Below are positions 1 through 63,581 of a stretch of 64,000 bases of DNA, piece after piece. Under the pieces are notes generated by a model that worked only from the letters and a program-made list of their open reading frames with translations, did not search any database and had not been told where the DNA came from. Each line of letters starts with the position of its first letter. The stretch's first letter is position 1. The stretch covers positions 1-64,000 of the forward strand of contig JARLHC010000050.1 in the NCBI GenBank assembly GCA_031292455.1. Direction: 5' to 3'. The translations under genes were made by a program, and so were the position numbers. Origin of the DNA: Ignavibacteriaceae bacterium (GTDB lineage Bacteria > Bacteroidota > Ignavibacteria > Ignavibacteriales > Ignavibacteriaceae).

Positions 1-125
1 GGATCCATTGTAAATCTTTTTAGTAAATTATTATTACAAATAATACCAACTGACCATAATTTTTTATGAACATCTATCCCCACATAAAAGTTTTGACTAC
101 TAAAGTCCAGTTTATTATTTTCCAT
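1..125 (-). CDS. IS110-family transposase, N-terminal fragment (cut by window edge)
   Basis: The reverse strand opens with an ATG at 125 and reads 41 codons to the window edge with no stop. The segment NFYVGIDVHKKLWSVGI (about residues 12-28) matches the start of IS110/IS1111 transposases, whose first catalytic Asp of the DEDD nuclease lies in the 'GIDVHK' motif. These enzymes move elements that usually lack long terminal inverted repeats. The rest of the gene lies outside the window. It sits where the coding sense of a DUF3078 gene breaks off, so the element appears to have inserted into that gene. The family assignment rests on this one N-terminal motif; the start codon and frame are clear. 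Confidence 0.75.
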   Translation of the reverse strand, partial: MENNKLDFSSQNFYVGIDVHKKLWSVGIICNNNLLKRFTMD

Positions 126-1284: not shown

Positions 1285-1668
1285 GTGGGTCAACAGCAAT
1301 TGCTCTTGATAGTTTTAGGTATGATTATCGTCGGTATTGCTGTAGTATTTTCTATTACTCTATTCCGGAAAAATGCAATTGATTCTAAGCGGGATTTGCT
1401 AATAAACGAATGCGGAAATCTTGCTATGGATGCTATGAAATATTATAAAAGGCCAAGCAGTTTGGGGGGGGGGGGCAATACTTTTGTCGGATGGGCAATC
1501 CCAGAAGTTATAGCTACTACCGCAACGGGATACTATTACTCGGCAGCAATATTTCAGGACAGTGTTTTAATCGTTGGCACGGGAAATGAAGTAGTAAATG
1601 GAAATGATTCAGTAAAAGTTCAAATTTCTGTTTATCAGAATAACTATAAAACACAAATAATCAACTGA
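1285..1668 (+). CDS. Short type IV pilin-like protein with poly-G tract
   Basis: A 127-residue protein starting at GTG 1285 behind a good aaaaagga site. Residues 1-25 are Met-Gly then a hydrophobic helix (GQQQLLLIVLGMIIVGIA), and the rest is a small globular domain. This is the layout of a type IV pilin, but the usual leader and the Glu at +5 of the mature helix are absent. It is paralogous to the next gene. The two share the motif [KR]P[TS]S[ML]GGGGNTF[TV]GW at residues 56-70 and a C-terminal 'IVGTGNE' block. The four glycines are encoded within a run of twelve G bases (1464-1475), so one-base slippage would truncate the protein. It may be a pilus subunit assembled by the downstream machinery. 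Pilin identity is inferred from shape and context. Confidence 0.75.
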   Translation: MGQQQLLLIVLGMIIVGIAVVFSITLFRKNAIDSKRDLLINECGNLAMDAMKYYKRPSSLGGGGNTFVGWAIPEVIATTATGYYYSAAIFQDSVLIVGTGNEVVNGNDSVKVQISVYQNNYKTQIIN

Positions 1669-1697
1669 CATGCAACAACAAATTATAGGAGTGATTC

Positions 1698-2075
1698 ATG
1701 GGTCAACAGCAACTTCTTCTCATCGTTCTCGGCGTTATCGTAGTTGGTATCGCCGTAGTAGTTGGTATCAATTTATTCACCGCAAACGCAGTTTCCTCTA
1801 ACAGAGATGGCGTTGTAGCAGATCTTAATAATTTAGGAGCTATGGCTCAGCAGTTCTATAGAAAACCAACCTCTATGGGCGGTGGCGGAAATACTTTCAC
1901 AGGATGGACAATTCCTACAAAGACAGATACTACACCTAATGGTACCTATGCTGCAACTGTTGCAGCTCAGAGCGTAACTATAGTAGGTACAGGAAATGAG
2001 AAAAATGCTGGATCAGCAATAGTTCATACAGCTACTATTTCTCCAACAACAATTACAGTAGTTAAAACAAATTAG
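1698..2075 (+). CDS. Short type IV pilin-like protein, probable major subunit
   Basis: This 125-residue protein starts at ATG 1698 after a strong aggag site, 29 bp after the preceding paralog. The N-terminus MGQQQLLLIVLGVIVVGIAV is an uninterrupted membrane helix (residues 4-28), followed by a small domain rich in Thr, Ala and Gly. The shared glycine motif is here encoded by mixed GGC/GGT/GGA codons without a homopolymer. A strong terminator follows directly, so the two pilins can be transcribed at a higher level than the assembly genes behind them, as is typical for a structural subunit. Canonical type IV pilins begin F-T-L-I-E after a 6- to 25-residue leader; this one has only Met-Gly and no Glu. 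Function is inferred from shape, context and operon position. Confidence 0.8.
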   Translation: MGQQQLLLIVLGVIVVGIAVVVGINLFTANAVSSNRDGVVADLNNLGAMAQQFYRKPTSMGGGGNTFTGWTIPTKTDTTPNGTYAATVAAQSVTIVGTGNEKNAGSAIVHTATISPTTITVVKTN

Positions 2076-2163: not shown

Positions 2164-3537
2164 ATGGTTGAATTTAGGTTTACTGCTGAAAAGTTAAATG
2201 GACAAACGTTAAGTGGATCTTTAACGTCCAATTCTTATCATGATGGGAAAAAGAAAATAACAAGACTAGCTGAAAAAAATCAGTTAAAAATAAAGAATAT
2301 TGAAAAGAAATCAACTTTTCTGTATCGTGCAAGAAGAGGAAGGGATCTACCTTTTAGAGGGGAACAAAAAGCATTTACAAAAAAAGAGGTTGAAGACGCC
2401 CTTTCACGCCTTGGTTATGAAGTTTTAAATGTTAATAAGAAATTAATAGATTATCAGGGAAAACCGCCACAGACAGAAATAGTAACTTTTGTAAAAATCA
2501 GCGCTGAACTTCTTGATCAAAAATTGTCGTATGGTGAGATACTAACCCTTTTGATAAATGATACTTCAAATAAGACGCTAAAAGAGACCCTTAAAGAAAT
2601 TAATAATGATTTAAAAAAAGGGGCTGATAGTGAAGCAACATTTTTGAAATATCAATCAGTTTTTGGAAAATTTACTGCATATATGTTAGGGCTTGCTTCT
2701 AAAAGTGGTAACATGACCGAAATATATAAAGCAACTGCAAAATTTCTGGAAAGAAGGCAGGAATTCAAAAAGAATTTAAGAAGCGCGCTTATAACACCCG
2801 CAGTGACAATCTTTGTACTATTTTTAGCTGTCCTTTTCTATGTAGGGTACATTTTTCCTGAAACGGCTAAACTGTTTGTTAGATTTGGAATTGACCTTCC
2901 CCCAATGACTGCATTCACTTTAAAAATGAGTGACTTCTTGATGGATTATAAATATTTAGTAGCCTTTGTCTTATTTGCTCCGATAATCTTTTTGTGGCGA
3001 ATGTCAAAATCGAAAAAGGGGGGGTATATTTTTGATCGTTATATTTTGAAAATTCCTTCTTTGGGTTCATTAATTCATAAAACTTTAATTGAAGTATATT
3101 GTCGTGTATTCTATACTTTATATAGTGGCTCTGCAGAAAGCATTGAACCAATTAGGATTGCTGCCGAAGCAACTGGGAATAGATATTTCGAAGATAGAAT
3201 AAAAAATATTGCTATCCCCCTAATGATTAAAAAAGGAACGGGCATTACAGATGCATTTACTGCAAGCGGAGTATTTACTGAAACTGCACTTTCCAGGTTA
3301 CATTCTGGGGAAGAAACTGGGACTATTAAAAATACTGCCCTTCAGTTAGCTAACTATTATGAGAGTGAAACTGTATATAAACTTAAAAATTTAATTGAAT
3401 TAATCCAGGTTTTTATAGCTATGATTATTATGGTTGTAATGATAATGTTAACTTTGGTATCGGCTGAAACAGCGACAGTACGGCCAAAGACACCTGGTAC
3501 GCAAATAGATGTTAAAATAGAAAAAAGTATAACATGA
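2164..3537 (+). CDS. pilC: GspF/PilC-type inner-membrane platform protein
   Basis: A 457-residue integral membrane protein of the type II secretion F family, the platform on which the assembly ATPases act in type IV pili and type II secretion. Three membrane segments are visible at about residues 210-232, 262-278 and 418-440, with two cytoplasmic F domains between them (for example 'LLTSKSGNMTEI'-like helices near 180 and 'RLHSGEETGTI' near 378). An N-terminal extension of about 100 residues (FRFTAEKLNGQTLSGS onward) precedes the first F domain. The stop codon overlaps the next start by four bases, so it is translationally coupled to the PilB-type ATPase. The family is certain; whether the machine is a pilus or a pseudopilus is not settled by this gene. 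Confidence 0.9.
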   Translation: MVEFRFTAEKLNGQTLSGSLTSNSYHDGKKKITRLAEKNQLKIKNIEKKSTFLYRARRGRDLPFRGEQKAFTKKEVEDALSRLGYEVLNVNKKLIDYQGKPPQTEIVTFVKISAELLDQKLSYGEILTLLINDTSNKTLKETLKEINNDLKKGADSEATFLKYQSVFGKFTAYMLGLASKSGNMTEIYKATAKFLERRQEFKKNLRSALITPAVTIFVLFLAVLFYVGYIFPETAKLFVRFGIDLPPMTAFTLKMSDFLMDYKYLVAFVLFAPIIFLWRMSKSKKGGYIFDRYILKIPSLGSLIHKTLIEVYCRVFYTLYSGSAESIEPIRIAAEATGNRYFEDRIKNIAIPLMIKKGTGITDAFTASGVFTETALSRLHSGEETGTIKNTALQLANYYESETVYKLKNLIELIQVFIAMIIMVVMIMLTLVSAETATVRPKTPGTQIDVKIEKSIT

Positions 3538-5324
3538 TTGATACTATCCTTGAAATGACTGATAAAATCGGATACCTCCTTTTTAAAAAAGGAATCATTG
3601 ATCCAATTGTTCTGGAAAAAGCATTAAATGCAAAAACAAATGATAAAAGTAAGATTAAAAGAAATCTTGCTCAGATATTAGTGCAGGATTTTGGTTATGA
3701 TCATGATACTATATTCAGGGAAGTTGCAATTTTATATGCGTTCAGGGAACTTGATACTAGGCCGGAAGAATTTCCTTCACAGAGATTAGAATCAATAAAA
3801 CAAATGATAAATGGCACCAGCGAAAATTTAAAAGGTCAGATGCTGGAGCATAAAATAATTCCCTTTATGTATGATGAAAGGATAAAAGACAAATTAATTT
3901 TAGCTGCCATTGACCCAACTGATAGGAATATTCCCAAGATAGCATTCGGGCTAAATGCCAAAAAATATGAAGTGATCTATATTAGAAAAAAAGATTATGA
4001 AAAATTAATTCAGATAATAATACCCCCTGAAAATGTTTATCTTAAGATGATGGAAGAGTCGGCTGGCGAACTCCAGATTGATAATGATGAGAACAGTCTT
4101 GATGAGCAGGAACTTGATGCTGAGATCAATAAAAGTGCATTAATAAATTTAGTTGAGGGTGCTCTCGTCGAAGGCGTGCGAATGGGTGCAAGCGACATCC
4201 ATTTTGTCCCCAAATCAGGTAATAAAACTGATATTCTATTCAGAATTGATGGAAATTTACAGGTATGGCATATTCAGGATGGCACTCTTCCCGAAGCAGT
4301 TGTAGCGGTAGTTAAGGACCGCTCAAAAGGAATGGATAGATTCGAAAGGGAAAGAGCACAAGATGGTTTTATTCAAAGAGAAATAGATAATCATATAATT
4401 CGTTTTAGAGTATCAGTGTTACCAATGGTTGGTACTGAACTTAAAAATAAATTTGAAAGTATTGTTATTAGAATTCTGGATGATAGGAAAGTTATAAAAG
4501 ACTTAGATAAACTTGGACTTATCGGTTATTCAAAAGATGCATTCACCAAAGCTATAAATCAACCACAAGGTATGGTAATTTTAACTGGTCCTACTGGAAG
4601 TGGTAAAAGCACAACATTAGTAGCTGCTCTATATCAGGTGATCGATCCTACTGTAAACGTATTGACAGTTGAAGATCCTGTTGAATATGTTATAGACGGA
4701 GCCAGACAACTGAAGATTGGTTTTAAAATGAATTTTGAGCAAGCAATCAGGTCTATACTTCGTCATGATCCTGATATTGTTCTGGTTGGTGAAATGAGGG
4801 ACAAAGAAACAGCTGATGTTGCGATAAAACTTGCAAATACAGGGCACTTAACCTTTTCAACTCTTCATACCAATGATGCACCAAGTGCAGTTGCTAGGCT
4901 TTATAAAATGGGTATTGAGCCATTCCTGATTGCTTATGCTATTAATTTAATTGTGGCACAGAGATTGGTACGAAGGCTATGCCCTAATTGTAAAAAACGA
5001 GTTAGTGGTTATGATGAAACAATTATGAAAGCAGCTGCATTGGATATAGATGAATGGAAAAACTATAATGTATATGAATCGAAAGGATGCGAAAAATGTA
5101 ATGGAACGGGGTATAAAGGAAGATTGGCAATTCATGAAGCACTCTATTTTACAAAAGAACTAAGACAGATTATTGTGAAATCCGGCGAAGATGTTGATGA
5201 AGAAAAAATCAGAATACAGTCAAAAAAGGATGGTTCCCTGAACCTGAGAGAAGCAGGTTTAGAAAAAGTAAAATTAGGATTGACTTCACTAGAAGAAGTT
5301 TTGGCCTCAACATCGGAAGAATAA
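3534..5324 (+). CDS. pilB: PilB/GspE-type assembly ATPase
   Basis: This 596-residue hexameric ATPase powers pilin polymerisation at the inner membrane. Order of parts: an N-terminal MshEN-like region (about 1-160), then the core with Walker A GPTGSGKST at 352-360, the Asp box with 'EDPVEY', Walker B HDPDIVLVGEMRD at 411-423 and the His box 'STLHTNDA'. A four-cysteine zinc site (C483, C486, C519, C522; CPNC and CEKC), typical of PilB/GspE and absent from PilT, separates it from retraction ATPases. It follows pilC with an ATGA overlap. Length and motifs are standard for the family. Confidence 0.93.
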   Translation: MIDTILEMTDKIGYLLFKKGIIDPIVLEKALNAKTNDKSKIKRNLAQILVQDFGYDHDTIFREVAILYAFRELDTRPEEFPSQRLESIKQMINGTSENLKGQMLEHKIIPFMYDERIKDKLILAAIDPTDRNIPKIAFGLNAKKYEVIYIRKKDYEKLIQIIIPPENVYLKMMEESAGELQIDNDENSLDEQELDAEINKSALINLVEGALVEGVRMGASDIHFVPKSGNKTDILFRIDGNLQVWHIQDGTLPEAVVAVVKDRSKGMDRFERERAQDGFIQREIDNHIIRFRVSVLPMVGTELKNKFESIVIRILDDRKVIKDLDKLGLIGYSKDAFTKAINQPQGMVILTGPTGSGKSTTLVAALYQVIDPTVNVLTVEDPVEYVIDGARQLKIGFKMNFEQAIRSILRHDPDIVLVGEMRDKETADVAIKLANTGHLTFSTLHTNDAPSAVARLYKMGIEPFLIAYAINLIVAQRLVRRLCPNCKKRVSGYDETIMKAAALDIDEWKNYNVYESKGCEKCNGTGYKGRLAIHEALYFTKELRQIIVKSGEDVDEEKIRIQSKKDGSLNLREAGLEKVKLGLTSLEEVLASTSEE

Positions 5325-5374: not shown

Positions 5375-6628
5375 TTGTCTTTATTATTATATAAATTCGT
5401 GACTATACAAGATCAAAAAGCCATATTAAAGAATTTTGTTAGTACAATTCCTTCAACGTTACTCGGACTTGCCCGTATATTCTATTTTTTCGAAAATATT
5501 AATAAACTAAATCCTGCAGATAGTGTAGAATTAAGGAACCTCATCAATAAACTTCTGTCCAGTATGATTGAGAAAAATGCTTCTGATATAGAATTGGGAG
5601 GATATGGAAATGGTGGATATGTCTGGCTCCGCATTTTTGGTAAAAAAGAAAGAGTTAAGGAATTTCCGACGTTTACTGAAGAAGAAGCAGCAGTCATTAT
5701 CCTTAATTTACTAAATACCGATCAATTAAAAATTTTGACTCATTCCCATAGTCTTGATTTCAGTTATTCTTTTCTATATGAAAAAAAGAATGAGAACGTT
5801 AGATTCAGGGCAAGTGCTTATTTTGAACTCGATTCATTGACCCTTAATATGAGGGCAATTAACAATCAAATCAGGCCAATTGAGTCATTAGAGTTTCATC
5901 CAAATGTCATAAAAACGATGAGTCATACTTTTATAAAACATGGTTTATCTCTTATAACAGGAATTACTGGGTCAGGTAAATCGGCAACACTTGACTCGAT
6001 TATTGATGCTCATAATAAGTCGGATCCAGCTCATATAGTTATTATATCTTCTCCGATAGAATATATTCATAAATCCAATATTTCGATTATTAAACATCGG
6101 GAAGTAGGACGTGATGTTACCTCATTTAAAGATGGTGTTACTCAGTCATTACGGCAGGATCCTGATATTATTGTTATTGGAGAGATGAGAGACCCTGACA
6201 CAATTTTAGCCGCACTAGAAGTTACGGATACAGGACATAAAGTGTTCTCAACATTACACACTTCATCAGCAGTTGAGTCGATAGATAGAATTATTGCAGA
6301 AGTTCATCCGAATGAACAGGACAGGGTTAGAAATAGACTCGCAGATGTGCTTATTTCTGTTGTATCTCAAAAGCTGGTACCCAGCCTTGATGGTAAACGT
6401 GTAATGGCTAAAGAAGTTTTACTTGTTAATTATAATGTAAAAGCTGCTATCAAAAATAATAACACAAGTGAGATTTATATGATGATTAATCAAGGGGGGC
6501 AACAAGGAATGATTACTATGGAACAGGACCTAAAAAGATTATATTTGAGCAGGAAAATTTCCCTGGATAATGCAATAGCTTATGCCAATAATAAAACTAG
6601 AATGCAACAAAATTTAACGGCGGTATAA
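5375..6628 (+). CDS. pilT: PilT-type retraction ATPase-like protein
   Basis: A 417-residue secretion ATPase without the cysteine zinc site, as in PilT/PilU enzymes that depolymerise pili. It has Walker A GITGSGKS at 196-203, Walker B 'RQDPDIIVIGEMRD' near 263-276 and a His box 'STLHTSSAVESIDRI'. The N-terminal PAS-like half (about 55-180) is present. The start is uncertain: the longest reading uses TTG 5375, and a GTG at 5399 would remove eight residues. Neither has a convincing ribosome-binding site, so it may be poorly translated or coupled to pilB. Its presence argues for a dynamic pilus and against a pure secretion system. Confidence 0.85.
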   Translation: MSLLLYKFVTIQDQKAILKNFVSTIPSTLLGLARIFYFFENINKLNPADSVELRNLINKLLSSMIEKNASDIELGGYGNGGYVWLRIFGKKERVKEFPTFTEEEAAVIILNLLNTDQLKILTHSHSLDFSYSFLYEKKNENVRFRASAYFELDSLTLNMRAINNQIRPIESLEFHPNVIKTMSHTFIKHGLSLITGITGSGKSATLDSIIDAHNKSDPAHIVIISSPIEYIHKSNISIIKHREVGRDVTSFKDGVTQSLRQDPDIIVIGEMRDPDTILAALEVTDTGHKVFSTLHTSSAVESIDRIIAEVHPNEQDRVRNRLADVLISVVSQKLVPSLDGKRVMAKEVLLVNYNVKAAIKNNNTSEIYMMINQGGQQGMITMEQDLKRLYLSRKISLDNAIAYANNKTRMQQNLTAV

Positions 6629-8161
6629 TTGAAGCCACTTGTTTGTATATACTGTGAAGGTAACGATACTAAAATAGCAGTTGTCGTTAAAGAAAAGGAG
6701 AAGTTAAAAGTTCTCATCACTACTTCTTTTGATATAATCCAACCCTCACTAGATTTGGAAGATGGTTTATCTAGTTTAAATATAGATGGTGAAGATTTAG
6801 AACTCGAAAAAATAAATAAAAGAGATTCAGCATCTATCCAAGCAAACCAAAGTGTCATTATTTCTGCTTTTAAAGGAATAAATCTAAACAACTGTTTGTT
6901 CTTACCCGCTTTAACAGAACCTGCAATTTACTATCATATTTTTGAAGGTTCAAAGCAAGAGAAAGGATCAAAATTAACACAGGAGATTATTTATGATATT
7001 AAAGAAACAAAGAATGTAACCATTAGCAAAGAGAATCTTGGTTATATTGAACTGGCAGATAATTCTATTCTATCAGTATTTCTAAGCGGAGAAGTTCAAT
7101 GTATAAAAATGGTAAATTCTTTGGCCCGTTATAACGGGAAAAGATATTACAAAATACCCGCAGTCAAGAGTGCCGAAATTTCCCTCGCTTATTACGTTGC
7201 AAAAAGAAAAAAATTTTTTCCTGACGACAACTCCCTTATTGTTTATATCGGGAAAGAATATAGTAAACTGATATTCCTTCAGGGGAGAAAACTTAAACAT
7301 ATTGGTTCTACACTTGATATCGGAACTTTAAATCTTCATACGTATGATGTTTATTTTTCTAAAATACTTCTTGAAATGGAAAATGGTGGTATTCCATCTC
7401 TTGATAATATTATTGTATGTGGTGAAGATGATAGTGAGAACCTCATATTATCATTTTATGGAACATTTCCTGAAGCAAATGTATCAAAGCTCGAGTTTGA
7501 TGATCTTGATATTTCCGATCTGGATGAAAAAGCAAAAGAAATATTTTCATCGTACAGTGTACCGATAGCTGTGGCAAATGATTATTTCGATGGTTTAGAA
7601 AATCTCCACAAAGGAATAAACCTTCTTCCAAAATATGTAAAAGAAGATCAGAAAATATTTCAATTTGCATGGCATGGTTATGCGATGCTTCCTTTTATTT
7701 TTATTGTTGCACTTTTAGTAACATATTGGGCTCTTAAAAATCAAAAAGAAATTAACATGCTGGATACTCAAATTTCCGGAAAAACAATTCTTCAACGGCA
7801 ACATCAAAAAATATTATCCAGAATTTCTGAAATACAAAATAAGATCAGTGGATTCGACCAGACTCAGAAAATTCTTGATTCGGCCTCAGCCGGATCGGGA
7901 GTGTGGTCTGTAGTTATGTCAAAAATATCCGGTTTTATTAGTAACAACCCCAATATTTGGTTAACCAGATTGTCAAAAGAAGAGGGCGACCAGGTGGTTG
8001 TAGAGGGTTATTCACTGAATAAAAATGTTTTGACCGATTTTGCTTATTACCTTGAGAATGCTCAATTAAAAAGTGTTCACTATGAGGCAATCTTAGAAAA
8101 GAATACGTACAGGTTTAATCTGGTGTTCAATATTACTGGTTATTATAAAGACGTCCTATGA
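6629..8161 (+). CDS. pilM: PilM-PilN fusion protein
   Basis: This 510-residue protein joins two pilus alignment-complex components that are usually separate. Residues about 1-325 form an actin-like PilM-type ATPase region (glycine-rich turns 'SLIVYIGKEYSKLIFL' and 'IGSTLDIGTLN'). The PilN signature GINLLP at 329-334 follows, then a membrane helix at 352-369, a coiled coil (about 375-425) and a periplasmic PilN/GspL ferredoxin-like domain to the end. The start is TTG 6629, directly after the PilT-type gene. It would connect the cytoplasmic ATPases to PilO and the secretin. The fusion boundary is visible in the sequence; the PilM half is divergent, so its ability to bind ATP is not certain. Confidence 0.8.
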   Translation: MKPLVCIYCEGNDTKIAVVVKEKEKLKVLITTSFDIIQPSLDLEDGLSSLNIDGEDLELEKINKRDSASIQANQSVIISAFKGINLNNCLFLPALTEPAIYYHIFEGSKQEKGSKLTQEIIYDIKETKNVTISKENLGYIELADNSILSVFLSGEVQCIKMVNSLARYNGKRYYKIPAVKSAEISLAYYVAKRKKFFPDDNSLIVYIGKEYSKLIFLQGRKLKHIGSTLDIGTLNLHTYDVYFSKILLEMENGGIPSLDNIIVCGEDDSENLILSFYGTFPEANVSKLEFDDLDISDLDEKAKEIFSSYSVPIAVANDYFDGLENLHKGINLLPKYVKEDQKIFQFAWHGYAMLPFIFIVALLVTYWALKNQKEINMLDTQISGKTILQRQHQKILSRISEIQNKISGFDQTQKILDSASAGSGVWSVVMSKISGFISNNPNIWLTRLSKEEGDQVVVEGYSLNKNVLTDFAYYLENAQLKSVHYEAILEKNTYRFNLVFNITGYYKDVL

Positions 8162-9048
8162 ATCGAAAATTAAGAAATACTCTCGGACTTATTGGTCTAA
8201 TGGTCTTATTATTGCTTGGGGGTGGTTTGTATATTTTTGCATTCCAGCATGGCAAAATAAATGAGAAAAAAAATAAATTAAGAGATCTTGAATCAGTCAA
8301 TTATAATACCGATCAGTTGAATAGTCAACTTCAGGAATTAGAAAGAAAAGCCATAGCCTTGGATTCTGTACTTGCCGCACGGAAATTTAATATTCCTTTG
8401 AATCTTTCTTCAATCAAATTTTACAATTTTGTCAATGTGATCGGTTCCGGTTTTTCACCAAACACACAGGTTGACGTAGAATTTATTGATCAGAAGAAAG
8501 AAAAACAGTTCCCCTACTTTGAATATAAAATATCCGGTAATGGACCTTATAATGATGTATATAAATTAATTTATTCTATTGAACAGAGCAAAGAACTTAA
8601 GAAGATAAAAAGTATAGTTTTAACAAATCAAATTGCAACCAATAAAGAAGGAATTCCAAACTTTGTAGTAAATTTTGTTGCTAATGTTGATATTTATTTT
8701 TCATTGGATAATCGTTTTACAACAAACAAGTTTGTAGAAAATAATCTTCTTACAGAATTAAAACGCGATGCTTTTTATCCTTTAATCCGTACCCAGATAT
8801 CCCCTAATGTTGATGACTTGTTAGATGTTCAGGGAGCAAAACTCCTTGCCTTAATTCCTGAAGGAGCCTTTCTGGCCGATACTAGAGGGAATACATATTT
8901 GCTATGGGAAGGGGAACAGGTTTATCTTGGATATCTTACTAAAATAGATTACGAACATAATACAGTAGGATTTATTCTAAATAAAGGAGGGATAATTGAA
9001 AGAGTTGAACTTGGTATTGATAAAGAAGTAAATAAGAAAAATCAATGA
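8158..9048 (+). CDS. pilO: PilO-like alignment protein with PilP-like C-terminus
   Basis: A 296-residue bitopic protein overlapping the previous gene by ATGA. One membrane helix (about 10-30) is followed by a coiled coil (35-75) and a PilO-type ferredoxin-like periplasmic domain (about 90-185). The last 70 residues (from 'KLLALIPEGAFLADTRGN') form a beta-rich segment with 'YLTKIDYEHNTVGFIL', which looks like the secretin-contacting domain of PilP/GspC. This would let one protein bridge PilN to the outer-membrane secretin, in line with no separate pilP being found. PilO identity is by position and layout; the PilP-like part is an inference. Confidence 0.7.
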   Translation: MNRKLRNTLGLIGLMVLLLLGGGLYIFAFQHGKINEKKNKLRDLESVNYNTDQLNSQLQELERKAIALDSVLAARKFNIPLNLSSIKFYNFVNVIGSGFSPNTQVDVEFIDQKKEKQFPYFEYKISGNGPYNDVYKLIYSIEQSKELKKIKSIVLTNQIATNKEGIPNFVVNFVANVDIYFSLDNRFTTNKFVENNLLTELKRDAFYPLIRTQISPNVDDLLDVQGAKLLALIPEGAFLADTRGNTYLLWEGEQVYLGYLTKIDYEHNTVGFILNKGGIIERVELGIDKEVNKKNQ

Positions 9049-10313
9049 GCTTGAATATGAAATTAAAATTAATATTTGTAGTAGTATTCCTTCTTGGGAC
9101 CACCTGTTTCCCACAGAAATATCTGGAGCGACAATTACAGGGAAATATTCCCAAGGATCAGATAGTTACTTTATCCCCTAACCTTACGTTTCAACAAGCC
9201 GTGGATCTTTTAAGCAAAGTAAGCGAAAAGGCCAAAGGCAAAAAAATTGTTTCTACAATTCAGGTTAATGAACCTATAGGAATTGAACTAGCAAATGTAG
9301 CTTATGATAAAGCCTTGGTCGCTTTGGTACAAATGATGGGTTTGATTTACGAAGAAAAAGAAGATGTTATAATCATAAAAAGGAAAAATGAGACCGCTCC
9401 AGTCCAAAGGACTGAATCAACTTATGCTTCTGTAGATTCCCGTGAAGTTAAGATTTCGGCTGTATTTTTTGAAGCCGATTTAAATACTGAACGACAGCTA
9501 GGGGTCGACTGGCAAGTTCTTCTCTCTAGAAATGGATTAAATTTAGGTGGAAATGGAGGAAATCCAATTCAATCAACTACGACAACTGGTTCAGGAACTT
9601 CCGGTACTACCACAACGGCTACCCAAGGCTATCAGTTAAATGCCACAACAAATTTTAATCTTGGTGGTTTCTTTGGAGACGCGACTGCGATATTCAGAGC
9701 ATTTGAAACTCAGAGTATTGGAGAAATTATTGCTAGTCCTAATATTACGACCCGCGATAGAGTAAAAGGTAGAATCCAGGTAGGTACAGATTTTTCGATT
9801 AAACAAAAAGACTTTGCTGGAAATGTAATTGAAAACTTTTTCTCAACAGGTTCCATAGTAGAAGTCACTCCTTACGTCTATAAAGAGGATGGTGTTGATT
9901 ATATTTTACTTAACATAAATGTCGAAAAAAGTTCTTTTACACCTGATCCTACAACAACAGAGGTAATAAAAAGCTCGGCAAATTCCCAGGTCGTTCTTCT
10001 GAATGGAGAAGAAACAATAATAGGGGGGCTTTATGAAAATAACTTAACCAAAATTAGAAATGGCATCCCATTTTTAAAAGATCTTCCGTGGTGGTTTTTT
10101 GGGCTAAGATATATATTCGGAAGCGATGATATTATTACTACAAAGAAAGAGCTTGTTATTTCAATTAAGGCGGAACTAATACCTTCTTTAAAAGAGAGAT
10201 TATCAGGAATTCATTCTAGTAATCCCATTAAAGATGAGTTAAATAGTCATAAAGATAAAATTAAGATTTATCAATTCAATGAATCACAGCAAACTCCAAC
10301 AAAGGATAAATAA
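9045..10313 (+). CDS. pilQ: Compact PilQ/GspD-type secretin
   Basis: This 422-residue outer-membrane secretin, short for its family (commonly 600-750), is the channel for a pilus or pseudopilus. It has a signal peptide (residues 5-23, starting perhaps at the internal Met5), one small N domain (about 35-115, ending 'EDVIIIKRKN') and the secretin domain (about 130-395). The secretin domain shows 'DWQVLLSRNGL', 'IASPNITTRD', 'VGTDFSIKQKD' and a C-terminal gate 'ETIIGGLYENN..RNGIPFLKDLPWWFFGLRYIFG'-like block. A Thr/Gly-rich insert lies at 175-200. It overlaps pilO by four bases and ends the structural part of the operon. Confidence 0.88.
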   Translation: MSLNMKLKLIFVVVFLLGTTCFPQKYLERQLQGNIPKDQIVTLSPNLTFQQAVDLLSKVSEKAKGKKIVSTIQVNEPIGIELANVAYDKALVALVQMMGLIYEEKEDVIIIKRKNETAPVQRTESTYASVDSREVKISAVFFEADLNTERQLGVDWQVLLSRNGLNLGGNGGNPIQSTTTTGSGTSGTTTTATQGYQLNATTNFNLGGFFGDATAIFRAFETQSIGEIIASPNITTRDRVKGRIQVGTDFSIKQKDFAGNVIENFFSTGSIVEVTPYVYKEDGVDYILLNINVEKSSFTPDPTTTEVIKSSANSQVVLLNGEETIIGGLYENNLTKIRNGIPFLKDLPWWFFGLRYIFGSDDIITTKKELVISIKAELIPSLKERLSGIHSSNPIKDELNSHKDKIKIYQFNESQQTPTKDK

Positions 10314-10321
10314 GGAATTTC

Positions 10322-10687
10322 ATGGAATCAATTTTAATTATTGATGATGATTATAACCTCTGTGCAGCTCTCCGGGAAGAATTAGCCGAAGTTGGTTATG
10401 AGGCTTATTATGTTAATAATGGAGACGATGCATTTCCATACATGGAACAACATAAAGTGGATTTAATCCTTTTGGATTTAAAAATGCCCGGGAAGGATGG
10501 TTTTGATGTTCTGCGGGAATTAGCCGATAAAAAAATTATAGTAAAGGTAATTGTTTTAACAGCATATGCTGATGTTAAAGGAGCTATCGAATCCGCTCGG
10601 TTGGGCGCATGTGATTTTATAAGTAAACCTTATGATTTTGACGAATTGTTGATAACGATTAGAAAAGTTCTACAAAAAGATATTTAA
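10322..10687 (+). CDS. Single-domain response regulator (CheY-like)
   Basis: A 121-residue stand-alone receiver with the acidic pair D8/D9, phospho-accepting D52 in LLDLKMPGKDG and the conserved Lys in 'ISKPYDFDEL'. There is no output domain, so it would act by binding a partner, for instance a kinase or motor. It starts eight bases after the secretin stop and is followed three bases later by the hybrid kinase, so it appears to be in the pilus operon. Its receiver resembles the N-terminus of the NtrC-type regulator at 16868-18235 (same 'KPYNFDELLITI' end). Confidence 0.9.
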   Translation: MESILIIDDDYNLCAALREELAEVGYEAYYVNNGDDAFPYMEQHKVDLILLDLKMPGKDGFDVLRELADKKIIVKVIVLTAYADVKGAIESARLGACDFISKPYDFDELLITIRKVLQKDI

Positions 10688-10690
10688 GAT

Positions 10691-13600
10691 ATGAAGATCA
10701 AATATAGAATTCTTATTATTAATTTTGCCATTGTTTTTTTGGTGATTGGTAGCTCTGCATTTGCCTTTTATTCTATTATGTATAGTGTCCTTACCTCACA
10801 GCATTCCAAGTATCTTCTTAATTCCACTAATGATTTTATATATGCATATAGAGAGTCCATTGATAATACCGAGGATGATTTCTTATACCTTCTGAATAAC
10901 GGGATAGATCAGAAATTTACTTCGCAGCAATTAGTAGAGAAAAACATTGATTTTTTATTAAAAGCTAATTCCTCAAAAATGATTATGAGTAAAACCTATA
11001 AAGAAAATGTTTATACTCCAGATAAATTTTTTTCATTAGAAGAGTTTATATCTAAAAATCCATTCTCTGTTATAAAGATTTATAAAAATGGGGATGGTAC
11101 ATCGTATTATTATGGAAAAATAATAGATTCTCATACCCTGAATGAATTCTCAAAAAGAATTGGAGCTGAAATTGCTTTGGTCAAGGACAATACCATTTCC
11201 CAATTATCAAATGAATCTCAAAATAATAAATTCCTTTTCTCTCTTAACACCGCATTTAAGAATCTTATTGTTAAAAATAATTTTGATATATTCTCCCAGA
11301 AAGATGAAGCAACAGATATACTGGTAACCATATGTAAACCCTCTTCCAATGTTGAAGAATTAAATAATAATTTCCATTTCCTCATATTCACGACATTAAA
11401 TGAAGCAGTGGATTTAAGATCAAGCTTAAAAGATATCCTGATTACCATTGGTTTCTCCGGAATTTTACTTTCCTTGATACTAACGTTTTTATTTACCGAT
11501 AAAATTAGGAGGCAGATTTCTGATTTAAGTAAAGCTACGGAAGTAATTAAAACAGGCAATTTTCAGAATAAAATTTTAATTAAAAGTAAAGATGAATTAG
11601 GTGAACTTGCCAGTGCATTCAATCTTATGGTGACTGAACTTGAAAAGAATCAGAAATCAATGAACGAGTATTCTGATTTTATTACTCTGTTGAATCAAAA
11701 CCCTTCCCTAAAAGAAATCTCAGATGCAGCTTTACGCAAAATAATTGATACATGTGGTTTTATTATAGGAGCATTATATACTGTTGAAGAAGGTATTATT
11801 AATATCGCGAGTTCTTTTGGCATGGAAAAAGGACATATTGCAGTTAATTCAAATTTTATCGATTCAGTTATACGTAATAGAGAAGTTATTGAAATAAGAT
11901 TTGAAGAGAACCCTCCAACAGTCTCCACGGGAGTTCTTAATTTGGAACTTAGATATCTGACATTGGTTCCTATCGTCTATAATAATAAAGTAATCGCAGT
12001 AATTGAATTAAGCGGAACCGATAAACCAAAGAAAGAAGCAAAGGATTATTTGAATAAAATTCAGGAACAGCTTGCAATTGGTCTGGCTAATGCAATAGCG
12101 TTAGTGCAGTTAGAGAAGCTTGTTATGGAATTAAAAAGGCTCAATGAAGATTATCAAAAACAAAATGTCCAGATAAGGAAACAAAACGAGGCTTTGGTTG
12201 ATCTTCATAAAAAATTAAAGGAAAAAGCAGAAGAACTTGAATTTCAAAGACAGAAAGCCGAGGAATCAACGCAGCTTAAATCTCAATTTCTTGCTAATAT
12301 GTCGCATGAATTACGTACGCCGATGAATTCTATTCTTGGTCTTTCAGAATTAATGCTTGAAGAATCTTCGTTAGTTGGAAAGAACAGAGAAAGAACTGAG
12401 GTCGTTTTGAAAAGCGGCAAAAGATTGATGAATCTGATTAATGATATTCTTGATCTGTCCAAGATCGAAGCTGGTAAAATGGAACTTCACGAAGAATATG
12501 TATTGCTTGATGATTTAATTAAGGAGGTTGAACACTCAATAAGTCCCTTGTTTTCTCATAAAAAAATTGATTTTAGAGTCATAAGAGATACTTGTACCTC
12601 AATTATAATAAATACTGACAGAGGTAAGGTTACACAGGTATTGATTAATCTTCTGGGGAACGCAATTAAATTTACAGAATCCGGGTATATTGAATTAAAA
12701 ATAAGTTCGGCTGATAATAAAGTGATTATTTTTACTATTGCTGATTCAGGAATTGGAATTTCGGAAAATGACCAGAAAGTTATTTTCGATGAATTTAGAC
12801 AGGTTGACGGCACCATTACCAAGAAATACAGTGGAACTGGCCTTGGTCTTACGATATGCAAGAAGATTGCCGACCTGTTGCAGGGATCTATAAGTGTCTC
12901 AAGTAAACCTGGTATGGGTTCATCATTTGTTTTTAAAATTCCCCTTAATTTTATTGAAAGAATTGAAGAGCAGAGCAATTCAGGATTAAATATTGAAAAA
13001 TTATTAGCTAATAGGAAAAGTCCAATCCTTATAATTGATGATAACCCAGAAGCAAGGTATACCATTGGACAATTTTTAATTTCTCGCGGATATGAAGTCG
13101 TTTATGCTGAAGATAGAAAACAGGGAATAAAAGAGGCCATAAATAGACGACCGTTTATCATAATTCTTAATGTCATGCTCAAACAGAGAGACGGGTGGGA
13201 AATATTAAATGAGTTAAAAAACACTAATTCAACAAGATCAATTACAATCATCTTGATATCAATTCTGGGGGATAAAAATATAGGGTATGAAATTGGTGCT
13301 TTCGAGTATATTGTAAAGCCTTTCAACACTGAATTACTCCTTACAAATATTACTAAGCTTGAAAGTATGAATAAGAAAAAGATTAAAAAAATTACTATTG
13401 TCGATGATGATGAACAAGTACTAGAGAATATTAAAAGTGCGATAAATAATGAAAATGTAAGAATTGACTATATCAATGAAAGTGAATTAGCCTTTAGTAG
13501 AATTCTGGAAACCCAACCGGATCTTATTATTATTGATCTTATAATGTCAAAAGTAGATGGGGTATCCCTTACTAATAAACTCAAAAGCAATAGAGAAACT

Positions 13601-14218
13601 AAGCACATTCCTATAATCCTTAGTACTGAGCAGGATATTACTGAAGAGGAAAAAGATAATCTGAACAATTTAGTTGAAGGTATCACTGTTAAAACTAAAG
13701 GACATCCTCTTGATATTTTAAAAGCCATAAGAGATAGGATTACATTACATGAATTCTATTGCGCTTCGAATAAAAAGAATAATTTAAGTTCTGCCAATTT
13801 ACAAGGTATAGAAAATTTAGTAGTCGAAGCAAATAATTACATGGGCCAGGTGCTTGTTGTTGATGATGATCCCGATACTTTATTTACAATCAATGAAATT
13901 CTGGAATCATGTAATTGTAAAACCTACCTCGTTACAGGAGGTAAGGAATGTCTGAAGATGTTGGAACAGGTAACGCCTGACTTAATCCTGCTCGATATTA
14001 TGATGCCTGACATGGATGGATTTCAGACGATAAATCAAATTAAAAAGCATCCCAGATGGGCCAATATTCCAATTTTTGCAGTTACTGCTAAAGCTATGGT
14101 TGAGGATAAGGAAGTAATTCTCCGAAATGGGTTTGATGACTATATTCCTAAACCAATAAATTCGAGCGTGCTTTCTATTAAAATTAGAAAAATATTTATG
14201 AACTTAAAAGTAAGTTAA
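10691..14218 (+). CDS. Membrane hybrid histidine kinase with three receiver domains
   Basis: A 1175-residue sensor kinase. Parts in order: helix 1 (9-31), extracytoplasmic sensor (32-245), helix 2 (about 247-267), HAMP (268-320), GAF-like domain (330-475), long coiled coil (475-530), HisKA with H539 in SHELRTPMNSILG, and HATPase (N box 'NLLGNAIKF', G boxes 'DSGIGI' and 'GTGLGL'). Three receivers follow: REC1 (acidic pair 783/784), REC2 (905; acceptor D949) and REC3 (1058; acceptor D1102). In REC1 the acceptor position is Asn827 ('IIILNVMLKQRDG'), so it should not take a phosphate. It sits between pil genes and other regulators and probably feeds signals to pilus function. The ligand is unknown. 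Confidence 0.92.
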   Translation: MKIKYRILIINFAIVFLVIGSSAFAFYSIMYSVLTSQHSKYLLNSTNDFIYAYRESIDNTEDDFLYLLNNGIDQKFTSQQLVEKNIDFLLKANSSKMIMSKTYKENVYTPDKFFSLEEFISKNPFSVIKIYKNGDGTSYYYGKIIDSHTLNEFSKRIGAEIALVKDNTISQLSNESQNNKFLFSLNTAFKNLIVKNNFDIFSQKDEATDILVTICKPSSNVEELNNNFHFLIFTTLNEAVDLRSSLKDILITIGFSGILLSLILTFLFTDKIRRQISDLSKATEVIKTGNFQNKILIKSKDELGELASAFNLMVTELEKNQKSMNEYSDFITLLNQNPSLKEISDAALRKIIDTCGFIIGALYTVEEGIINIASSFGMEKGHIAVNSNFIDSVIRNREVIEIRFEENPPTVSTGVLNLELRYLTLVPIVYNNKVIAVIELSGTDKPKKEAKDYLNKIQEQLAIGLANAIALVQLEKLVMELKRLNEDYQKQNVQIRKQNEALVDLHKKLKEKAEELEFQRQKAEESTQLKSQFLANMSHELRTPMNSILGLSELMLEESSLVGKNRERTEVVLKSGKRLMNLINDILDLSKIEAGKMELHEEYVLLDDLIKEVEHSISPLFSHKKIDFRVIRDTCTSIIINTDRGKVTQVLINLLGNAIKFTESGYIELKISSADNKVIIFTIADSGIGISENDQKVIFDEFRQVDGTITKKYSGTGLGLTICKKIADLLQGSISVSSKPGMGSSFVFKIPLNFIERIEEQSNSGLNIEKLLANRKSPILIIDDNPEARYTIGQFLISRGYEVVYAEDRKQGIKEAINRRPFIIILNVMLKQRDGWEILNELKNTNSTRSITIILISILGDKNIGYEIGAFEYIVKPFNTELLLTNITKLESMNKKKIKKITIVDDDEQVLENIKSAINNENVRIDYINESELAFSRILETQPDLIIIDLIMSKVDGVSLTNKLKSNRETKHIPIILSTEQDITEEEKDNLNNLVEGITVKTKGHPLDILKAIRDRITLHEFYCASNKKNNLSSANLQGIENLVVEANNYMGQVLVVDDDPDTLFTINEILESCNCKTYLVTGGKECLKMLEQVTPDLILLDIMMPDMDGFQTINQIKKHPRWANIPIFAVTAKAMVEDKEVILRNGFDDYIPKPINSSVLSIKIRKIFMNLKVS

Positions 14219-61148: not shown

Positions 61149-61703
61149 ATGGGTACTGGTCAGACGATGATAACGCTTTTAGCGATGGTTTTACTGTCGT
61201 TTATGATTCTTAGAGTAAACAATTTGTTTCTTCAGACAACAACTACTTTAAATACTACTAAGTTTGATGTTCTTGCATTTTCACTTGCAGAGTCAATGAT
61301 TCAGGAAATAGAAGCGAATGCTTTCGATCAGGCGACGGTTACCGCGGTTGTATCCAGTACAAGTAGTCTTTCAACTACTTTAGGGCCAGAATCTGGCGAA
61401 ACATTTGCTACATATAACGATATAGACGACTTTAATAATTATACAAGAATTGATACTGTTCCCGAGAAGAGTGGTGTTGTTTTTAATATTAGATGCAAAG
61501 TAGATTATGTAACGTCAACGGCGCCGGATGTTCCTACATCCACCAAAACATGGAATAAAATGATCACTGTTTATGTTACAAGTCCATTTATGGTACAAAA
61601 TTCTCTAACTAATCAGTATTATACTAAAGTTACTGCAGCTACACCAATTATACATGATACTGTTAAATTATCCCAGGTATATAGCTATTGGAATTTTAAG
61701 TAA
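61149..61703 (+). CDS. Minor-pilin-like protein 1
   Basis: A 184-residue protein starting MGTGQTMITLLAMVLLSFMIL: Met-Gly, a few small polar residues, then one membrane helix (about 6-25), then a Thr/Ser-rich periplasmic or surface domain. There is no recognisable leader. First gene of three consecutive open frames separated by three bases each. Placed as pilin-like from its shape and its shared promoter element with the pilin locus at 1285; no family match is known to me. Confidence 0.65.
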   Translation: MGTGQTMITLLAMVLLSFMILRVNNLFLQTTTTLNTTKFDVLAFSLAESMIQEIEANAFDQATVTAVVSSTSSLSTTLGPESGETFATYNDIDDFNNYTRIDTVPEKSGVVFNIRCKVDYVTSTAPDVPTSTKTWNKMITVYVTSPFMVQNSLTNQYYTKVTAATPIIHDTVKLSQVYSYWNFK

Positions 61704-61706
61704 ATT

Positions 61707-62309
61707 ATGGGCTATTCTACAATAATAGATATAGTGGGTTCTATAATCATCGGCGGTATGCTGCTGGGCATTCTTCTTAAACTGAATAATTCCGCCTCTT
61801 GGAATATTTATACAAACTCCGGTGAATTAAACTGCCAGACTAATCTGGCCCAGATGAGCCTTATTCTTGAAAATGATTTCAGGAAAATTGACTACTGTTC
61901 CGATTATACAAATATTCAGGATCCTGCCAATGCTATTATTTCGGCCGATTCATCATCAATTAAATTCATAGCTGACTTGAACAAGGATGGGAATATGGAT
62001 ACAGTTTATTATTACTTGGGGCCGGCTTCTGAATTGAATGCAACTAAAGATCCCAGGGATAAGATTCTTTACCGTATTGTAAATAATGCCCCTAAAATGG
62101 GTTCCGATGCAGGTATTACACGATTCTATATGGTGTATTATGATGTTAATGGAGATACAATCCATACCCCTGTTTCAGCAGCAAATCTTTCCCTTATTAA
62201 CGATATTGAATTAAATATGAATATTGAAAATGTTGGAATTGACAGCACAGTTCTTTATTCTTATTGGCGGCAGGCTCGGTTAACTGTTCCGAATATAAAG
62301 AATAGGTGA
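61707..62309 (+). CDS. Minor-pilin-like protein 2
   Basis: A 200-residue protein beginning MGYSTIIDIVGSIIIGGMLLG, a membrane helix (about 4-26), followed by a domain with 'NGDTIHTPVSAANL' and a C-terminal 'YSYWRQARLTVPN' that resembles the end of PilW/GspJ-like minor pseudopilins. It starts three bases after protein 1. Function by context only. Confidence 0.65.
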   Translation: MGYSTIIDIVGSIIIGGMLLGILLKLNNSASWNIYTNSGELNCQTNLAQMSLILENDFRKIDYCSDYTNIQDPANAIISADSSSIKFIADLNKDGNMDTVYYYLGPASELNATKDPRDKILYRIVNNAPKMGSDAGITRFYMVYYDVNGDTIHTPVSAANLSLINDIELNMNIENVGIDSTVLYSYWRQARLTVPNIKNR

Positions 62310-62312
62310 TTT

Positions 62313-63581
62313 ATGGGTGGAAAAGCGATTTTAATTGTTGTACTAAGTATCAGCCTGACATTCTTCTTTATCGGTGTAAATTATAATCGTATGACATTAA
62401 GCGCTAGTGATAATATGACGAATTATGCCAATAAGCAGATATCCCATTGTATTGCAGTAACCGGAGTTAATATTGCATGTAATGCTTTCTATATTGATCC
62501 CAATTGGACTGCTGGTTATTCAAATGTATCATGCATGGGCGGTTCATATAGTGTTACCGTTCAAACCCTGGATGCAGTTAAACTTATTAAAAGTATTACT
62601 TGTATTTCTACCTTTAAAGGCTTTAAAGATACTGTACATGGGGCTGTCTTGTATTATTTGCCTGACTATCATGATACAATCATAGTTACCTTTCAGCCCA
62701 GCAGGTTTTCCCGTTATGCATATTATTCCTCAAGTGAAGGTGGAAGCCCGATCTACTGGGCTACAGGTGATACTGTGAAAGGACCTTTACAGACACAGGA
62801 TTATCTGAGAGTTTCAGGAAATCCGGTTTTCCTTGGATTTGTTGGTACAAAGATGGGAGTACTTAATAAAAATGGCTCGGCTGATCACCCGCAGTTTCTT
62901 GGTGGTTTGCTTACCGGTAGTAACATTCCCATAAATACCTCCGGTGTTTCGTCCGTTGAAGCTTTTGCTCTTACCAATGGATATGAATTTACAGGCCATG
63001 ATACAGTTTATCTCAACTTTCAGGGGGACTCTGTGAAATATCGGTATGCCTGGAATACAAAGGATACAACTAAAAAATTATCTACAATGACTCCAAACGG
63101 TGTTCTTTTTGTTAAAGGAGGTACTGCTAGAATTAGGGGTAAAATCAAAGGACAGTACACTCTGGGATGTTCATATGTCTCTAAAGGTGGTAGTGTCTAT
63201 TTAGATAGTAGCATTGCGTATAATACTAACCCGATTTCTAATCCTAATTCAACAGACATTTTTGGTGTTGTAACACAGAATAATTTTACAATTACAGATA
63301 ATAAGGCCAACAATAATAGTGTTACCATTCAGGCGTCTATATATTGCCAAAGTGGAAGCTTTGGTGCAGAAAACTACAGTACCCGAGGGTTCGATGGTTA
63401 TATAAATCTTCTTGGGGGAGTGGTCCAGGCTATAAGAGGAGCTGTGGGAGTGATTGGCAACGATGGTACTATTTCAAATGGCTTTAGCAAATCCTATTCT
63501 TATGATCGACGTTTTATGTTCAGTGCACCTCCCAACTTTCCGAATACTGGCTCATACAATGTTATTTCCTGGTACGAATAA
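62313..63581 (+). CDS. Minor-pilin-like protein 3, large (PilX-like)
   Basis: A 422-residue protein beginning MGGKAILIVVLSISLTFFFIG (helix about 4-22). The large C-terminal part is rich in Gly, Asn, Ser and Thr with beta-helix-like repeats ('VQTQDYLRVSGNPVFLGFVG', 'GQYTLGCSYVSKGGSVYLD', 'GAVGVIGNDGTISNG'). This suits a tip or surface-binding subunit, as in PilX/GspK-type proteins. Three bases separate it from protein 2, and a terminator follows its stop. Role inferred from layout. Confidence 0.6.
   Translation: MGGKAILIVVLSISLTFFFIGVNYNRMTLSASDNMTNYANKQISHCIAVTGVNIACNAFYIDPNWTAGYSNVSCMGGSYSVTVQTLDAVKLIKSITCISTFKGFKDTVHGAVLYYLPDYHDTIIVTFQPSRFSRYAYYSSSEGGSPIYWATGDTVKGPLQTQDYLRVSGNPVFLGFVGTKMGVLNKNGSADHPQFLGGLLTGSNIPINTSGVSSVEAFALTNGYEFTGHDTVYLNFQGDSVKYRYAWNTKDTTKKLSTMTPNGVLFVKGGTARIRGKIKGQYTLGCSYVSKGGSVYLDSSIAYNTNPISNPNSTDIFGVVTQNNFTITDNKANNNSVTIQASIYCQSGSFGAENYSTRGFDGYINLLGGVVQAIRGAVGVIGNDGTISNGFSKSYSYDRRFMFSAPPNFPNTGSYNVISWYE

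Follow-up and report, generated by a model that had tools for sequence, protein, structure and literature searches.

Leaderless pilins beside a type IV pilus-like operon in an Ignavibacteriaceae genome without a detectable prepilin peptidase

The window, that is, the whole stretch of 64,000 nucleotides of Ignavibacteriaceae DNA analysed here, carries two adjacent pilin-like genes near its beginning, a run of type IV pilus (T4P)-like assembly genes directly behind them, and a set of three minor-pilin genes near its far end (Table 1). The two pilins share the N-terminus MGQQQLLLIVLG, which begins Met-Gly-Gln-Gln-Gln-Leu-Leu-Leu, and the second of them (pilin 2) is likely the major pilin. An in-frame TAA lies immediately 5' of the GTG at 1285 and an in-frame TGA one codon 5' of the ATG at 1698, no alternative start lies between the upstream stop and the start codon at either gene, and GGA/AGGAG stretches resembling ribosome-binding sites stand at the expected spacing 5' of both starts. 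These stops, 0 and 1 codon before the respective starts, leave no room for a longer leader on either protein. Both translation starts can thus be taken as certain to within the annotated Met, and what leader there may be is Met-Gly at most. An earlier note on this DNA had claimed just this, that both pilins carry only Met-Gly before the membrane helix, and had named true starts further upstream as the case against it; such starts were looked for and are excluded by the stop codons, in the window genes as in the homologues. Neither pilin matched any family in Pfam, NCBIfam or PHROGs.

Table 1. Pilin genes, putative assembly genes and a homopolymeric tract in the window, with the evidence for each assignment.
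Feature	Coordinates	Strand	Evidence and remarks
Leaderless pilin 1	1285..1668	+	127 aa, GTG start, MGQQQLLLIVLGMIIVG; homologue of pilin 2 in the same genome
12-G run within pilin 1	1464..1475	+	encodes a conserved Gly-Gly-Gly-Gly motif; possible phase-variable tract
Leaderless pilin 2	1698..2075	+	125 aa, ATG start, MGQQQLLLIVLGVIVVG
PilC/GspF inner-membrane platform	2164..3537	+	PF00482 E 3.7e-30, far above Pfam cut-off
PilB assembly ATPase	3534..5324	+	PF00437 E 1.3e-102, far above Pfam cut-off; TIGR02538 E 9.6e-127, under equivalog cut-off
PilT-family retraction ATPase	5375..6628	+	TIGR01420 326.6 bits against a cut-off of 319.1
PilM-PilN-like fusion protein (putative)	6629..8161	+	weak PF05137 (PilN) E 0.009 and NF045709 (PilM-like) E 0.013; operon position
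PilO-like protein	8158..9048	+	position, N-terminal membrane helix, conserved place in the operon
PilQ-type secretin	9045..10313	+	PF00263 E 7.3e-26; TIGR02515 E 1.1e-29
Leaderless minor pilin, family I	61149..61703	+	184 aa, MGTGQTMITLLAMVLL
Leaderless minor pilin, family II, PilW/GspJ-like	61707..62309	+	200 aa, MGYSTIIDIVGSIIIGG
Leaderless minor pilin, family III, PilX/GspK-like	62313..63581	+	422 aa, MGGKAILIVVLSISLTFFF

The PilB-type ATPase, PilC platform, PilT and PilQ secretin by which a type IVa pilus-like system is recognised are all encoded, in keeping with the description of the assembly apparatus as canonical in the earlier note, which had been made from the letters and translations of this DNA. 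The PilM-PilN-like fusion is a putative assignment, made partly from its place in the operon, and the PilO-like protein had no significant family match. The start of the PilT gene is given as TTG at 5375, the longest reading, GTG at 5399 being possible. Most relatives with a long enough locus, and six further genomes, share the order pilin-pilC-pilB-pilT-pilMN-pilO-pilQ. Directly 3' of pilQ lie genes for a response regulator and a large hybrid histidine kinase (10322-14218), and the same pair stands downstream of pilQ in the relatives L140, L141 and L150. As for the G run in pilin 1, which is uninterrupted over its 12 positions, no other pilin of the 231 compared has a run of more than six; the tract could turn the gene on and off via slippage or could be a sequencing hazard.

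Conservation of the leaderless pilin was assessed in 231 distinct homologues of more than 100 aa, residues being counted from the initiator Met as 1 and all counts being taken from genome sequences. The best named relatives belong to Ignavibacteria MAGs, Melioribacter and Ignavibacterium. Met1 and Gly2 are present in all 231 homologues, Gln3 in 228, and Gln4 and Gln5 in 230 each, with Leu-Leu-Leu following the Gln tract in nearly all; the lone exception at position 5 has Glu (MGNRELLL). Mean column entropy is 0.09 bit over residues 1-8, 1.04 over residues 9-27, 1.92 over residues 28-60 and 2.17 from residue 61 to the end, while codons 2-8 vary synonymously among the same homologues, so that selection acts on the protein; judged from these sequences, the MGQQQLLL start is not there by chance. 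No alternative upstream start exists in 225 of 234 homologues, the in-frame stop lying at a median distance of 4 codons upstream in the 234. Residues 2-26 are free of charge in 222 of the 231 pilins, and the flank formed by residues 27-42 has a mean net charge of -0.8 across all 231. The family occurs in 131 of the 245 genomes sampled from the class Ignavibacteria, against 127 of 245 for pilC in nearly the same set of genomes, and in 73 further Bacteroidota genomes outside the class, where the N-terminus is the same.

The model of pilin 2 obtained with AlphaFold2 (20 sequences) has a helix at residues 2-55 followed by a four-strand sheet at a mean pLDDT of 86.7, and so displays the long N-terminal helix and antiparallel four-strand head of type IV pilin architecture; the family II minor pilin is modelled with a helix at residues 3-59 and a beta domain (pLDDT 86.9). 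Foldseek returned nothing significant for these two models against the PDB, with PilA and PilX as weak matches of the major pilin, and nothing significant for the major pilin against viral structures, so the identity of the fold is taken only from the architecture of the model. At the level of sequence, the best match of the major pilin profile among PDB sequences was Geobacter PilA at E 0.56, which is not significant, and hhalign of the major pilin against prepilins of the class found nothing. Homology of the major pilin to known pilins is probable from the predicted architecture and the operon, though not proven by sequence.

The three long-helix proteins encoded at 61149-63581 start with Met-Gly, and their relatives make up the minor-pilin set at a second pil locus of this genome (L149:3636); the gene for the family I protein is the first of that set. 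This second locus, on contig C135 of the same genome, is complete, with a leaderless pilin of its own and four minor-pilin genes directly upstream, and the family III relatives there have a weak DUF7305 match. Among 116 distinct minor pilins (36 of family I, 36 of family II and 44 of family III), the hydrophobic helix sets in 2-7 residues after the start in all three families; stop codons are found a short way upstream, and alternative starts are nearly absent. Gln occupies residue 5 in 26 of the 36 family I proteins. Asp or Glu occupies residue 6 in 25 of the 36 family II proteins and residue 8 in most others, the conserved acid of the window protein being at position 8. Family III has Lys or Arg among residues 2-5 in 42 of 44 proteins and shows neither Asp nor Glu up to residue 12, the helix of the window protein likewise being free of acid. 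Known minor pilins include GspJ/PilW with the acid and GspK without it, and the pattern in families II and III resembles this division. The absence of Glu5 claimed by the earlier note thus stands for the major pilin, which has Gln instead (position 5 in 230 of 231), but does not extend to all the minor pilins, one family of which keeps Asp or Glu near position 5. In family II, removal of Met would bring the acid to position 5, which suggests that nothing but the initiator Met is left of the leader; the Thermus pilin TTHA1219, in a weak alignment (E 0.33), agrees in register with an acid at position 5 after Met loss, and hhalign of the family with canonical prepilins of the class gave a probability of 75.5% and E 2.4e-5. 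Position 2 of the minor pilins varies between Gly, Ser or Ala and Asn, with Gly in 10 of 36, 13 of 36 and 30 of 44 sequences of families I, II and III, respectively.

A search for a PilD homologue, which the earlier note had proposed as a check, found none in the genome itself, whether with the Pfam model PF01478, a class-specific profile of nine PilD proteins or the archaeal PF06847 (Arc_PepC_II), which also gave no match over its cut-off in 21 relatives. Searches for a hidden PilD (PF01478 at loose thresholds, the class profile and PF06847) gave sub-threshold fragments only, many of them interrupted by stops. Across the class, PilD scored above cut-off in 12 of 245 genomes, all 12 of which also carry the leaderless pilin; it was not detectable in 119 of the 131 pilin-bearing class genomes, nor in 63 of the 73 pilin-bearing genomes outside the class. 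Prepilins with the N_methyl motif occur in each of the 12 PilD-positive class genomes, in several cases beside PilD by coordinates, as in G019, where one contig carries PilD and N_methyl prepilins at 66-70 kb and leaderless pilins at 125 kb. In the other direction the association is imperfect, six further class genomes having N_methyl matches above cut-off without a PilD match. The peptidase search was positive in 12 control genomes besides the 12 class genomes, and PilD and ordinary prepilins, being found where present and found together, therefore provide a built-in control for the searches. No PilD was found in five closed single-contig genomes (G153, G165, G113, G183 and G180) that carry the pil operon, and in G153 two leaderless pilins adjoin pilC. 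The pilC of G165 (L141; G165:C1:3074991-3076145) contains internal stops (4 TGA, 2 TAA), and this copy may be decayed, misassembled or affected by sequencing errors. Neither the hydrophilic leader of 6-26 aa ending in Gly nor the Glu5 by which type IV prepilins are recognised was found in pilins 1 and 2, and the peptidase expected of a T4P system was not detected in the genome. The distinct pilin class suspected in the earlier note gains support from the absent PilD together with the leaderless minor pilins.

The reading preferred here, to which a probability of about 0.78 is given from the sequence evidence, is a type IV pilus whose subunits would be translated as mature pilins, prepilin processing being dispensed with and at most Met being lost. 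SRP and Sec would insert the pilin helix so that its N-terminus stays in the cytoplasm. A positively charged leader is missing, and by the positive-inside rule the near-neutral to acidic stretch that follows the helix would favour the N-in orientation without one. Met would be removed by methionine aminopeptidase where Gly, Ser or Ala comes next, as could happen in the major pilins, whose invariant Gly2 fits such removal. Asn at position 2 normally leaves the initiator Met in place, and its frequent presence there in the minor pilins weakens Met removal as a universal maturation step. The suggestion of the earlier note that peptidase processing is minimal or replaced is supported, there being no detectable PilD and no leader on the minor pilins either, with the refinement that Met removal does not serve as a general rule. 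No prepilin peptidase would act, because none is encoded as far as the searches reach, although a maturation protease that is highly divergent or of unrelated origin may exist. PilC and PilB, to go by gene content, would extract the subunits and stack them on a tip formed by the three minor pilins, PilM-N and PilO would connect to the PilQ secretin as the exit, and the PilT-family ATPase would retract the filament. Between neighbouring subunits, the uncharged N-terminal Gln tract would stand in for the contact of Glu5 with the N-terminal amine. Glu5 mutants of canonical pilins form no homopolymers (PMC4471445), and assembly without Glu5 therefore needs a compensating contact, which is here only proposed. 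The broader view of a phylum-wide T4P branch in Bacteroidota, with no peptidase, no leader on any pilin and no Glu5 in the major pilin, in which a stack of N-terminal Gln in the filament core would replace the salt bridge between Glu5 and the N-terminus, is favoured with some reserve.

The pilins are expected to form surface filaments. Were they instead membrane proteins of a T4P operon that serve a short pseudopilus or secretion piston, which is judged unlikely, much of their appearance would be the same, pilins and pseudopilins having the same architecture, and the description of Melioribacter roseus lists a type II secretion pathway together with an incomplete set of pilus genes (PMC3534657). 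However, the operon includes a PilT-family retraction ATPase above the curated cut-off, its secretin is a better match to PilQ than to GspD, and genomes hold several copies of the major pilin, as is usual for pili rather than pseudopili. Another way of accounting for the short N-terminus, considered quite improbable, is that Met-Gly serves as a minimal leader and that a prepilin peptidase, unrecognised or very divergent, still cleaves behind Gly-1; the mature protein would then begin with Gln, like some archaeal pilins with Gly-Gln sites. The invariance of Gly2 in 231 major pilins, like that of Gly-1 in bacterial prepilins, would agree with this, as would the weak sub-threshold A24-like fragments in some class genomes, and some systems allow a shortened leader; a leader of two residues nevertheless falls below the known 6-26 (both PMC4471445). 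Moreover, three models find no A24 peptidase here or in most genomes, although these searches did detect it in 12 class genomes and the controls, and the minor pilins often lack Gly2 whereas PilD substrates need Gly-1. That the true starts or a PilD were merely missed through assembly gaps, as might be feared of a draft genome in 171 contigs (96.7% complete), is refuted almost beyond doubt by the stop codons directly upstream, found likewise in 225 of 234 homologues, and by the closed relatives in which PilD is missing too.

With the bacterial type IVa pilus, the peptidase-free pilus favoured here would share PilB, PilT, PilC, a secretin, the operon layout, a pilin-like helix with a four-strand sheet and a minor pilin set. 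It differs in having no leader on any pilin, no PilD, Gln for Glu5 in the major pilin, and a major pilin without detectable sequence similarity to Pfam pilin families. It appears to work like a type IVa pilus while lacking two defining features of prepilins (leader and Glu5) and one of the system (peptidase). The class also has canonical, PilD-dependent pilins (e.g. L046, L049 and L136), which come from the same lineage and can share a genome with leaderless pilins. They differ from these in having Glu5 and leaders such as MKRCLHYSLKNDG before FSLTELMVV; five class prepilins, when aligned, have leaders containing Lys or Arg, Gly-1 and Glu5. The flank after the helix is, by eye, clearly positive in most of the canonical prepilins, in contrast to the negative mean of the leaderless pilins. 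Archaeal class III signal peptide pilins, the substrates of EppA/PibD, resemble the leaderless pilins in having Gly-Gln near the start, and archaeal pilins often have no Glu5 (PMC4471445); they retain a charged leader and a peptidase, however, of which the leaderless system has no detectable counterpart. MSHA loci without a peptidase of their own borrow one from another system (PMC6668835), whereas in the genome of the leaderless system no peptidase was detected that could be borrowed. The genome paper on Melioribacter roseus noted pilT, pilQ, pilB and pilC and gave pilA and pilD as 'not found' (PMC3534657), the leaderless pilins not being recognised there. A pilA that is present but leaderless, and a pilD that is not needed, would explain that result.

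To our knowledge, prepilin cleavage by a dedicated peptidase has been treated as a step common to all type IV filaments. Pilin-finding software depends on the leader and Glu5, and pili of Bacteroidota are likely under-annotated. In the open-access literature, no paper was found with MGQQQLL or GQQQLLL, nor any prior report of peptidase-less pili, the phrase matches being a review and a Nanohaloarchaeota paper. If pili form, cleavage and Glu5 would not be essential to the machine itself, and the system would help to separate what PilC and PilB recognise from what PilD needs. M. roseus is culturable and offers a testable system, and a peptidase-free pilus could make it simpler to reconstitute pilus assembly in a laboratory host.

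Further copies of the pilin are present in the same genome. The copy on contig C76 (L135) encodes a protein identical to pilin 2 over 125 aa. Of the 14 nucleotide positions at which the two genes differ, all silent, 9 fall within the first 36 nt, a clustering at the 5' end such as would be seen after gene conversion. This copy and those on contigs C57 (L132) and C111 (L133) are full-length orphans, with no pil operon within the DNA read. A different arrangement is seen on contig C65 (L134:4040-4801), where a 253-aa protein has an N-terminus resembling a Sec-type signal peptide and ends in about 95 residues that copy the pilin from residue 30 on at 55% identity, so that a pilin head is joined to another N-terminus.
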